A stretch of 64,000 nt of DNA from Microthrixaceae bacterium (GTDB lineage: Bacteria; Actinomycetota; Acidimicrobiia; Acidimicrobiales; Microtrichaceae): NCBI GenBank assembly GCA_020027475.1, contig JAHRAZ010000023.1, positions 1 to 64,000 on the forward strand, given 5' to 3'. The notes beneath the pieces are model-generated. The model was not told the DNA's origin, ran no database searches, and saw only the letters and a list, made by a program, of their open reading frames with translations. This document shows, piece after piece, positions 4,543-57,729 of this stretch (position 1 is the first letter of the stretch; each line of letters begins with the position of its first letter). Made by a program: the position numbers and the translations under genes.

Positions 4543-5139
4543 TCAAACCTGATCGGGCGCCGAGATTCCACCGAGAAACTGCGTTCGAACCACCCTGCGG
4601 GTCTGTTCAGGATCTGTGAAGTCAACGCCGGCCGGGCTGGTCAGAGCGGAGAGCGTCATCCGCGTTAGGTAGTCAGCGGCCTCGGCCACGTCGACTCCGT
4701 CGGCAAGCCGTCCGGCATCCGCTTCGAGAACCAGCGTCTCTGCAACGTAGTCGCGCACCAATGTGTGCAGGAGCGGCCGAGCCGGTTCGAGAGCACCGGC
4801 CAACTCCGACACGTCCGGTTCCATCAGGTTCGCCAGGATGCGGCTCTGATTCATGCGCTTCGCGCCGACGACCAAGCCTTCGACCAACCGGTCCTCGAGT
4901 GATTCAAGATGGGCAACTCCGATTGCCAGTCCGGTCCAGAAGCGGGCCACTTCCCATGTGGCAGTCTCCTCGAGGAGTTGCGACCGTCCATCCGGGAAAT
5001 GCCGGTAGATGGATGTCCGGGACAATCCGGACTCCGATGCGACGTCTTCCAGGGAGAACCCTGAGACTCCGGAACGCTCAGCGCAGCGCAGGGTGGCGCG
5101 CATGATCCGTTCTCGTGTGTCACTCACGGCCGGAAGCAA
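4543..5139 (-). CDS. TetR family regulator
   Basis: 198-aa regulator with helix-turn-helix LEDVASESGLSRTSIYRHF at about residues 25-43 and a variable C-terminal domain. Its start overlaps the end of the SURF1 gene by about 20 bases, so it is probably transcribed with SURF1. A start at the in-frame GTG near 5127 is also possible. The target is unknown. It is not close in sequence to the TetR protein just downstream. Confidence 0.82.
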   Translation of the reverse strand: MLPAVSDTRERIMRATLRCAERSGVSGFSLEDVASESGLSRTSIYRHFPDGRSQLLEETATWEVARFWTGLAIGVAHLESLEDRLVEGLVVGAKRMNQSRILANLMEPDVSELAGALEPARPLLHTLVRDYVAETLVLEADAGRLADGVDVAEAADYLTRMTLSALTSPAGVDFTDPEQTRRVVRTQFLGGISAPDQV

Positions 5140-33968: not shown

Positions 33969-34361
33969 CTAGAGGTACAAGCCGGTGTGACCCTCTTCAA
34001 GGCGCTCCGAAGCCACGGCATGCAGGTCTCGTTCGCGCAACGTGATGAACGTCTCGCCGCCAACCTCCACTTCGTAGACGTCTTCATGGTTGAAGAGGAC
34101 CTGATCCCCCTCCTGTACCGATCGGACATTCGGACCCGCGGCGCGGACCGCCGCCCATGTCAGTCGTTTGCCGAGCTGAGCGGTGGCCGGAATCACGATT
34201 CCGCCGCTGGACCGCCGCTCCATCTCGGAGTCATCAACCTGGACCAGAATGCGGTCGCTCAGCATCTCCACCGGAATCTTGTCAGCGCGTCCCATGCGCT
34301 GGACCGAATCTGACTCTGGCTTGGGTTCCGCAGACGTGCTCACTGCCACCGATTCTGGCAT
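33969..34361 (-). CDS. GroES-like co-chaperonin
   Basis: 130-aa protein with the GroES fold. [23 protein letters not shown] contains the mobile-loop region, and [31 protein letters not shown] is the C-terminal half. It has about 35 extra N-terminal residues (Ser/Glu-rich), which are unusual for a 10-kDa chaperonin. No groL lies nearby. A shorter start at an internal ATG (about 23 codons in) is possible. Confidence 0.75.
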
Positions 34362-34364
34362 GGA

Positions 34365-35165
34365 CTACCGTCGATCGGCCAAGAACGGGTATTTGGACCG
34401 AACCTCGGAAACGGTTCCGGCGTCGAGCACTGCATGCAGAATCGTCTCCTGTGCGCCGGCTCCGTCCGACACCACCTCGCCCAACGGATCAACGATGAGG
34501 GAGTCTCCCGAATACTCCACGTTTCCCCCGAGGCCCACCCTGTTTGCGCCGACCACCCAAGCCTGATTCTCGATCGCCCGGGCAATCAGCAGGGAACGCC
34601 AGTGTGCAATGCGCACCGCGGGCCAATTGGCGATCACCACGTAGGCATCGGTGTCAGGGGCAAGCGCCCAGAAGTCGTCGGCGAAACGAAGGTCGTAACA
34701 GATGAAAAAGCTGATCCGGACTCCCCAGATCTCCACGTTGAGGAATCCATTCCCCGCCGAGATCCGTTGGTCTTCTCCCGAATATGAGAAGAGGTGTCGT
34801 TTGGCGTAACGCTGAACCGAGCCGTCGGATTGGGCAACAACGGCCACATTCGAAGGCAGGCCGCCCCCGGTGGAGCGTTCGCATATTGATCCCACGAGTG
34901 TGATTCCATGCTCGTGAGCCAACTCCGCGAGAAATGTGGAGGTCTCTCCGCCCTCGGGCTCCGCGATCAATTCGGTGTTGGCCGTGAATCCGGTGGCGAA
35001 CATCTCGGTGAGCACTATCAATTCGGCACCCGAGCGCGCCGCAGCGACGATCTCGGGGCGGAGGCGGGCGCGGGTGGCCTTGGCGTCCTCGAAGGTGATG
35101 TCGTGTTGAAGAACAGCGACCGGAAGTCGTCCTATTGTGATGACTGTGACGGTAGTTCCCCTGAA
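34365..35165 (-). CDS. Carbon-nitrogen hydrolase (nitrilase family, omega-amidase-like)
   Basis: About 260 aa with the nitrilase Glu-Lys-Cys triad: E in LTEMFATGF, K in AKRHLF, C in FFICYDLRF. The ICYDLRF form is closest to omega-amidase YafV-type enzymes. The start is uncertain: GTG at 35165 is given, but a TACCGT box on this strand points to a non-standard ATC start at 35141, and the family start fits that place. See findings. Confidence 0.85.
   Translation of the reverse strand, partial: FRGTTVTVITIGRLPVAVLQHDITFEDAKATRARLRPEIVAAARSGAELIVLTEMFATGFTANTELIAEPEGGETSTFLAELAHEHGITLVGSICERSTGGGLPSNVAVVAQSDGSVQRYAKRHLFSYSGEDQRISAGNGFLNVEIWGVRISFFICYDLRFADDFWALAPDTDAYVVIANWPAVRIAHWRSLLIARAIENQAWVVGANRVGLGGNVEYSGDSLIVDPLGEVVSDGAGAQETILHAVLDAGTVSEVRSKYPFLADRR
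35133..35154. promoter_or_regulatory. Interlocked divergent promoters
   Basis: TATTGT (35133-35138, plus strand) lies 7 bases before GTG 35146; TACCGT (35154-35149, minus strand) lies 7 bases before ATC 35141. Each promoter lies inside the start of the other gene, so the two mRNAs would diverge without overlapping. Confidence 0.45.
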
Positions 35166-35760
35166 CACCTCCGACGGGATCACCTTGGCGGCCGAGACCG
35201 TCTTGCCCGAAGGTGAGGTGCTGGCAGCAGCGGTGCTGCTGCATCCCCATCCACTGATGGGTGGCAACATGGCCGCTCCGGTCCCGGATCATCTGTTCAG
35301 GCTCCTTCCGGCCGAGGGGATCGCAGTCATGCGGTTCGATTTCCGGGGCGCCGGATCATCCGGTGGCGAATTCGGTGGCGGAATTGCAGAGGCGACCGAC
35401 ACAGAAGCGGCCATCGACCATCTGGCCACATCCACGGGCCTACCCGTGTGGCTCGTTGGCTGGTCCTTCGGCGCTGACGTGTCCCTTCAGGTGGTGGATC
35501 CTCGCGTGGCGGGCTGGGTCTGCATCGCTGCCCCGCTGAGAACGGTTTCCACCGACTTGATGTTGGCTGCCGATGATCCCCGACCGATTCACCTGATGGT
35601 CGCCGAGCACGATCAGTTCACCACACCTGAGCAGATCGCCGAGTCGAGTGCCGGCTGGGTGAACACCCGGACACAGGTGATCCCGGGAACCGATCACTTC
35701 CTCGCGGGCAGACTCGGAGCGGTGGCACTCGCGACAACAGCAATTCTCGAATCAGGCTGA
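35146..35760 (+). CDS. Alpha/beta hydrolase
   Basis: About 204-aa serine hydrolase core. The oxyanion region HPHPLMGG, FDFRGAGSS, the nucleophile elbow GWSFGAD (Ser), and the acidic residue in VAEHDQF and His in GTDHF complete the catalytic triad. The length fits the small dienelactone-hydrolase/YpfH-type group. The GTG at 35146 fits the 7-base distance to TATTGT; ATG at 35140 is an alternative. Substrate unknown. Confidence 0.82.
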   Translation: MTVVPLNTSDGITLAAETVLPEGEVLAAAVLLHPHPLMGGNMAAPVPDHLFRLLPAEGIAVMRFDFRGAGSSGGEFGGGIAEATDTEAAIDHLATSTGLPVWLVGWSFGADVSLQVVDPRVAGWVCIAAPLRTVSTDLMLAADDPRPIHLMVAEHDQFTTPEQIAESSAGWVNTRTQVIPGTDHFLAGRLGAVALATTAILESG

Positions 35761-35876
35761 ACGAGTCCGAACACGCTCCCGGACCGACCCCGGTGGACGC
35801 CGGACCGGCATGTCCATGCTCGCACCCAGATCAGATCGGGTGTCGGTCACCTCGGACGTCGATCAGGCCGTGCGGA

Positions 35877-36683
35877 TCAGAGCCTGTCGGGACTCGGACG
35901 GACACGAACCCCGGCCGCAGCCAGAGCCTCCTTCGCATCGCCGACCGAATGCTCGCGGAAATGGAATATCGATGCTGCCAGGACAGCCTCGGCCCCGGCC
36001 TCGGTGATGCCTTCCACAAGATGGCGGAGGGTTCCGACTCCTCCGGACGCGATCACCGGAACCGTGACGGAACCGGCAACTGCCGCGGTGACCGGCACAT
36101 CGAAACCGTCGCGGGTGCCGTCGCGGTCCATCGAGGTGAGCAGAATCTCTCCGGCTCCGAGCTCAACAGCCTTTTCAGCCCATTCGAGAGTGTCGAGTCC
36201 TGTGGGAGTCCGACCGCCGTGGGTATACACCTCGAACTCGGGAGCATCGGGCCGATCCGGCTTACGGCCACGTGAATCAATGGCCACGACCACACACTGC
36301 GCACCGAATTCTTCGGCGATCTCGCTGATCAGTTCAGGCCGTTCCACGGCTGCGGTGTTCACGCCCACCTTGTCCGCGCCTGCCCGCAGGATCGCCCTCG
36401 CGTCCTCAACGGAGCGGATTCCGCCTCCAACGGTGAAGGGTATGAACACCTGCTCGGCTGTGTGGCGAACCATCTCCAGTGTGGTGTCCCGGGCATCACT
36501 GGAAGCCGTGATGTCGAGGAATACCAACTCGTCGGCACCTTCGGCGTCGTAACGCTCAGCCAGTTCCACCGGATCACCGGCGTCGACCAGGTCGACGAAG
36601 TTCACACCCTTGACCACCCGGCCGGCATCCACATCGAGACAAGGTATGACCCTTGCGACATTCATTCCCTGCCCCCCGGTCAT
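35877..36683 (-). CDS. hisF: Imidazole glycerol phosphate synthase, HisF
   Basis: 268-aa cyclase barrel of the fifth His step, partner of His[10 protein letters not shown] (first catalytic Asp) and VVVAIDSRG (second catalytic Asp) are present. The ATG at 36683 overlaps the hisA stop by 4 bases; an internal ATG six codons in is the more usual family start. It is the last gene of the his operon; nothing clear lies in the gap to 35760. Confidence 0.95.
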
Positions 36684-42525: not shown

Positions 42526-42600
42526 ACCCAGCGGCGGTGCCGGTGGAGATATCCCTCTGGACGCTGATGATGACCGCGATGTTGCCACGACTGCGCACGG

Positions 42601-42606
42601 TAGCCT
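42601..42606 (+). promoter_or_regulatory. Predicted -10 box of mshD
   Basis: TAGCCT ends 7 bases before GTG 42614, within the possible 5' end of nth. Confidence 0.5.
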
Positions 42607-57719: not shown

Positions 57720-57729
57720 AGCCTATGTT
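57720..57729. promoter_or_regulatory. Overlapping divergent -10 boxes of menD and menH
   Basis: Minus-strand TAGGCT (57725-57720) and plus-strand TATGTT (57724-57729) share two bases. Both lie 9 bases from their start codons, which are only 28 bases apart. Confidence 0.45.

Follow-up and report, generated by a model that had tools for sequence, protein, structure and literature searches.

A candidate 5'-terminal AUC start codon in a conserved amidase gene interlocked with a divergent, putatively leaderless hydrolase gene in Microthrixaceae

Which codons are able to start a leaderless mRNA bears directly on how ribosomes pick a start in the absence of a leader. Leaderless genes account for a mean of 19.2% in actinobacterial genomes (PMC3160421, in the part available). 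Here, we analysed a 64,000-nt stretch of a Microthrixaceae genome (the window; the genome is referred to as G000), in which an alpha/beta hydrolase gene on the plus strand diverges from a carbon-nitrogen hydrolase (amidase) gene on the minus strand, and the amidase frame offers no usual start codon where its product should begin. The question raised by this locus is from which codon, and on which transcript, the amidase is translated. The features concerned, whose letters were read directly, are as follows.

35133..35138, plus strand: TATTGT, predicted -10 box of the hydrolase; its antisense reads as amidase codons ACA ATA (TAGGGT in G001, the second species of the genus)
35146..35760, plus strand: alpha/beta hydrolase coding sequence with a candidate leaderless GTG start (MTVVPLNTSDG..); Pfam Hydrolase_4 / Abhydrolase_6
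35149..35154, minus strand: TACCGT, predicted -10 box of the amidase; its antisense reads as hydrolase Thr-Val codons ACG GTA
35139..35141, minus strand: ATC, candidate 5'-terminal start, seven bases past TACCGT; predicted 5' end C[A]T
34365..35141, minus strand: carbon-nitrogen hydrolase (nitrilase superfamily amidase), read from ATC; Pfam CN_hydrolase, E 1.7e-37
35133..35135, minus strand: ATA (CTA in G001), in the same column as the ATG start of the amidase in G016, a genome of the same family
35166..35168, minus strand: rival start GTG, without upstream TANNNT and with GGAG abutting
35268..35270, minus strand: rival start ATG, five bases downstream of a GGAG and also in G001; requires a transcript antisense to the hydrolase
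33969..34361, minus strand: GroES-like (Cpn10) gene, 3 bp past the amidase stop; Pfam Cpn10, E 2e-15

On the plus strand, TATTGT is followed by seven bases (N7) and GTG 35146; its minus-strand counterpart, TACCGT (35154-35149), leads through CACAGTC (N7) to ATC (35141-35139). Along the plus strand the elements therefore come in the order hydrolase -10 box, amidase start, hydrolase start and amidase -10 box. Each predicted -10 box lies inside the first codons of the opposite gene, and the predicted 5' ends lie at a distance of 5 bp, enclosing 4 bp. Direct reading confirmed the interlocked divergent arrangement described in the initial annotation, including the fit of TATTGT to GTG 35146 and of TACCGT to position 35141. 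The same annotation had stated that the amidase frame lacks any ATG, GTG or TTG near 35141 and resumes only at a GTG at 35165. The first part holds, since none of these codons occurs in the frame between GTG 35168-35166 and TTG 35021; the coordinate needs correction, as 35165 belongs to the next codon, TTC.

The amidase belongs to the nitrilase superfamily (CN_hydrolase), with a domain score of 129.6 bits vs a Pfam gathering score of 23.2. Residues E55, K123 and C157, which we take to be the nitrilase catalytic residues, are invariant among 27 amidase sequences. A more specific assignment to the PRK10438 amidohydrolase (NCBIfam NF007757) was rejected, the score of 164.1 bits falling below the curated cut-off of 249. 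Comparison within the genus comprises two genomes, G000 and G001. The amidase of G001 is 94% identical, and its junction reads GTG TTC AGA GGG ACT ACC GTC ACG GTC ATC ACC CTA; TACCGT, N7 and ATC are retained there and a usual start codon is likewise absent. The comparison of start codons in orthologues, proposed earlier as a check, returned the same ATC for G001. From this ATC to the stop, the alignment of the two genes is free of gaps, frameshifts and stops and gives a dN/dS of 0.10; judged by this ratio, the amidase is under purifying selection. Because G001 keeps TACCGT-N7-ATC without a usual start and dN/dS is this low, neither a sequencing or assembly error nor decay is likely to lie behind the missing start codon.

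In most relatives a usual start codon is close at hand. The survey of amidase starts used 45 of the 80 loci of an earlier relative list; 99 loci were entered and 96 rows returned, some of them representing the same genome twice. ATG, GTG or TTG was found at most nine codons upstream of the conserved Val in 91 of the 96 rows, which is a generous count in that the distant L024, L027 and L029 enter it only through a GTG at the conserved Val itself. In these three, the likely start is 16-22 codons upstream of the conserved Val, with TANNNT five bases ahead. A near start is missing from five rows, namely G000, both entries of G001 (L003 and L061), G002 (L004) and L077; in G002 and L077 a GTG or ATG occurs 12 codons upstream.

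The predicted protein is compatible with a start at ATC. The residues immediately following it (GRLPVAVLQHD) indeed fit the start of the family, as had been suggested. An AlphaFold model of the amidase read from upstream has a mean pLDDT of 94.0; residues 1-7, upstream of ATC, score below 50 and the first strand begins past the ATC residue. In this model, a start at ATC would leave the fold whole. Starts further in (TTG 35021, GTG 35015 and ATG 35003) were rejected, as the product would then lack the first strand and helix of the model. How well the upstream extension is conserved cannot separate the possible starts, because the two frames share their wobble positions and dN/dS is similar in the extension and in the control antisense frame (0.20 vs 0.17). 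Suppression of third-position changes near the junction, considered as a sign of promoter elements, is only slight.

The start of the hydrolase is clearer. In-frame candidates other than GTG 35146 are GTG 35137 and ATG 35140. The product read from GTG 35146 aligns without gaps with the orthologue in G016, MTVLELRTSDG, which begins with ATG and whose start is preceded by TACCGT-N6. A search at E at most 1e-30 matched 116 of 397 genomes of the order, and the best 30 loci of these, including those of G000 and G001, were analysed. TANNNT lies six to nine bases before ATG or GTG in 27 of these best 30 loci, the exceptions without a fitting TANNNT-RTG being L036, L168 and L189. Because the motif and its distance to RTG are kept in orthologues and the G016 alignment is gap-free, a leaderless GTG start is well supported for the hydrolase by comparative evidence, and the window gene shows the same layout.

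We then asked how much weight the two boxes can bear in this genome. The survey covered 283 kb of G000 (the window and 20 further stretches), with genes taken from a simple codon model built for this analysis; its counts are rough, as the model missed the hydrolase of the window. TANNNT occurs at a frequency of 0.00091 per position per strand. The base composition of the window would predict 0.0068, so the motif is depleted. Around the coding onsets of 213 ORFs, TANNNT-N6..N9 is followed by ATG 33 times, by GTG 17 times and never by TTG, and TANNNT was found near the onset of 38 of the 58 genes with a divergent neighbour vs 15 of 159 equal-length control stretches inside genes. The leaderless spacing is real in G000. 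ATC stands at N6-N9 three times, including this amidase, which is a low background like that of other codons; near the onset of these 213 ORFs there is no sign of a general class of non-RTG leaderless starts.

At the locus itself, TATTGT is the sole TANNNT on the plus strand in 34901-35200. TACCGT is the sole one on the minus strand between 36442 and 33921 (~2.5 kb); of these two flanking boxes, the upstream one (36442) falls within hisF and the downstream one (33921) beyond the Cpn10 gene. The pattern in G001 is identical, with boxes matching 36442 and 33921 and no others in that stretch. The probability that the minus-strand box fits by chance was estimated by hand as ~4% (about 40 placements, from in-frame codons near the expected start and four spacings). 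Taken alone, the fit is suggestive and no proof.

The gene order in relatives offers a possible origin for such a junction. In G016, the locus runs hisH-hisA-hisF, hydrolase (reversed), a luciferase-like gene, amidase, Cpn10 gene, hisI and trpE, the his and trp names being presumed throughout. The amidase ATG of G016 overlaps the stop of the luciferase-like gene, whose product matches Pfam Bac_luciferase and exceeds the cut-off of NCBIfam TIGR03560 (F420-dependent class). G002 and G017 have no hydrolase at the locus and carry a luciferase-like frame with the same beginning; G015 has the hydrolase and the luciferase-like frame, with no amidase match within the stretch; and in G008 the hydrolase adjoins the Cpn10 gene, the amidase being on a different contig. 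At 24 of 25 order-level loci (L168-L192), a Cpn10 match points away from the hydrolase, and the extrapolated starts of the two are no more than about 50 bp apart (eight of the Cpn10 partners were read and one was scanned against Pfam). GGTACC, mostly as ACGGTACCGT, is present near the hydrolase start at 20 of these 25 loci and also in G015 (L164, about 3791). A search limited to ATG and GTG placed a start of each gene six to nine bases from the shared box at 22 of the 25, the two starts being separated by 24-27 bp.

It appears that in these order-level relatives a single palindromic -10 box serves the hydrolase and the GroES-like gene in opposite directions, both genes being leaderless. From the gene orders we infer that the ancestor likely had a shared palindromic promoter between the hydrolase and the Cpn10 gene, and that these two genes were later separated by the luciferase-like gene and the amidase. 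In the genus of G000, the luciferase-like gene is absent at the locus and the amidase ATG would have been lost, such that the amidase frame now enters the hydrolase promoter. In the alignment with G016, the lost ATG column is ATA in G000 and CTA in G001; the exact junction is ambiguous, as the same bases also align with the -10 box of the G016 hydrolase.

Two side observations concern the Cpn10 neighbour. The Cpn10 gene of the window matches Pfam Cpn10 and scores below the NCBIfam GroES cut-offs; it is perhaps a GroES-like paralogue beside hisI/trpE. The hydrolase orthologue of G008 (L165, about 4600-4760), which lies beside a Cpn10 gene, has neither ATG or GTG near the conserved start nor a fitting TANNNT, and perhaps represents another broken shared promoter.

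The best explanation that we can offer for the window locus is that gene loss rebuilt a divergent promoter and that translation of the amidase begins at a 5'-terminal AUC, a reading held tentatively and at somewhat less than even probability. RNA polymerase would bind either TATTGT, producing a hydrolase mRNA with its 5' end at GTG 35146, or TACCGT, producing an amidase mRNA with its 5' end at 35141; the opened stretches of the two promoters would overlap, so that the two bindings would be mutually exclusive. The amidase mRNA would start at A35141 (C at -1 and T at +2) and read AUC ACA AUA GGA, with no RUG within reach. If the TACCGT transcript is translated, its start codon must be non-RTG, because there is no RUG in reach. 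Initiation at AUC would be the simplest reading if the sole promoter motif is the one used, most likely at the very 5' end and probably weak. Considered by itself, AUC initiation at the amidase is plausible, with a chance likewise below even. The full proposition, that a gene under purifying selection in two species breaks the RUG rule by starting at a 5'-terminal AUC of a leaderless mRNA, having been joined to a divergent leaderless promoter by a gene-loss frame fusion, is a shade more doubtful.

The evidence on this start points both ways. The initial annotation had considered an AUC start possible and rare. In its favour, TACCGT-N7-ATC is kept in G001 while the codon at 35135 changed there from ATA to CTA, and the predicted 5' end, C[A]T, agrees with the commonest arrangement of -1/+1/+2 bases in Mycobacterium tuberculosis (PMC3898074, in the part available). 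On the other hand, mycobacterial 5' ends were active only with ATG or GTG in the accessible part of PMC4633059: in M. smegmatis, without a Shine-Dalgarno site, only 547 of 343,242 selected reads had anything other than ATG or GTG at +1, ATC served as a negative control at the 5' end, and it retained 0.2% when placed behind a leader with a Shine-Dalgarno site. Furthermore, one substitution at 35139 would give ATG while sparing both the hydrolase coding sequence and its -10 hexamer, and it is absent in both species. Either a low output therefore suits the cell or translation starts elsewhere. A special initiator tRNA for AUC was also considered and discarded: ARAGORN, run on 30 of 33 tRNA loci, reported two CAU tRNA-Met and one Ile-GAU, and no special initiator among them.

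If translation starts elsewhere, the amidase may be carried on a longer mRNA, arising by read-through from hisF or from a start inside the hydrolase in antisense, and initiate at GTG 35168 (9 extra residues) or ATG 35270 (43 extra residues). We regard these rivals to AUC as doubtful, though as a serious possibility. The RUG rule would stay intact, both codons are kept in G001, ATG 35270 is provided with its GGAG, the orthologues of G002 and G017 have a GTG, much like GTG 35168, located 16 codons upstream of the conserved Val, and no terminator-like site was found in 35700-35950. However, the minus strand is devoid of TANNNT between 36442 and 35154, the GGAG directly abutting GTG 35168 is not a proper ribosome site, and from hisF to the hydrolase the minus strand forms a strong fold (-56 kcal/mol, a value that carries no shuffled control). 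The disorder modelled for residues 1-7 also argues against an upstream start.

TACCGT may also be a by-product of the Thr-Val codons of the hydrolase, in which case the amidase promoter would be of a non-TANNNT type. In favour of this, 20 of the 58 genes with a divergent neighbour lack TANNNT near their onset, and the -10 motif is absent from 27% of M. tuberculosis start sites (PMC3898074, same part). Nevertheless, the box is at the same place in G001, a similar TACGGT occurs in G016, and the N7 distance is exact and accompanied by a C[A]T initiator, so that this explanation seems unlikely. The G016 hydrolase also uses the Val codon GTA, which gives TACNGT on the opposite strand, and GTA is rare, accounting for 4.1% of Val codons in G000.

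Even less probable is initiation of the TACCGT transcript at AUA 35135, the former ATG column, behind a six-base leader. The ungapped alignment with the G016 ATG start would favour it, but the codon varies between the two species and ATC does not, the CUA of G001 would be expected to initiate even worse, and six bases are too short for a ribosome site. The least probable account is that the amidase is barely expressed and being lost, for its start codon and the neighbouring luciferase-like gene are gone, and yet its dN/dS, its intact gap-free alignment and its invariant catalytic residues speak against decay.

With 5'-terminal AUC initiation as the preferred reading, the locus can be compared with known systems. 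Actinobacterial leaderless genes have TANNNT about 12 bp upstream of a 5' RUG. The window locus resembles them in the -10 motif, the spacing and the lack of a well-placed Shine-Dalgarno site, and the hydrolase has its GTG. The amidase has its TANNNT within six to nine bases of the candidate start, as does that of G001, but differs in having ATC at the predicted 5' end in both genomes where mycobacterial assays found only AUG and GUG active. Among natural non-RTG starts in bacteria, LC-MS confirmed one GTC start in Caulobacter (PMC4117421) and AUC, AUU and AUA are listed as rare starts (PMC9094748), each as given in the part of the source available. The amidase is similar to these cases in having a candidate start outside ATG, GTG and TTG in a conserved gene, and would differ in that the codon is 5'-terminal on a leaderless mRNA; within the collection of papers searched, no report of a leaderless mRNA with an AUC start codon turned up. 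A conserved natural gene that seemingly has only AUC at its 5' end makes the mycobacterial AUG/GUG rule testable in another actinobacterial lineage.

In its predicted divergent transcription from overlapping elements, the locus also resembles the bacterial bidirectional promoters of Warman, Grainger and colleagues. The order-level relatives are alike in having one shared palindromic -10 box, whereas the window locus has two separate boxes with the start points between them. Start points of bidirectional promoters are most often 18 and also 10 and 23 bp apart (PMC12825309, in the part available), a set that does not include the 5 bp predicted here. The locus suggests that gene loss can rebuild a divergent promoter shared by two leaderless genes, with the promoters inside each other's coding sequence.

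To examine the interlock in other genomes, its canonical form (RTG on both sides, i.e. CAY in place of GAT, at the same spacing) was searched in the 397 order genomes. It was not enriched: there were 26 matches in 25 genomes, and the backwards control, summed by hand, gave 34. The idea of an enriched design of the order was therefore rejected. Of the six divergent pairs of leaderless type that the 283 kb of G000 contain, none has this spacing. Four of the 25 matched sites that were read are flanked on each side by a frame of at least 100 codons. Two of these four are one pair in G157 and G085 (L230 and L231, about 1501-1522), with ATG on both sides, encoding a MoCF_biosynth protein and a dienelactone-hydrolase-like protein that are 92% and 97% identical between the genomes. 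Because the MoCF domain match begins at residue 27 and a further Met is at 19, the true start of the former may lie further in. The remaining two sites have a Pfam match on one side only.

Additional leaderless-type starts were observed elsewhere in the window. Past the Cpn10 stop, TAGGAT-N8-ATG at 33921-33905 on the minus strand, whose box is also present in G001, is likely a separate leaderless start of the following gene. Two more divergent pairs of long frames, at 42597-42606 and 57720-57729, have leaderless-type starts that share one palindromic -10 box.
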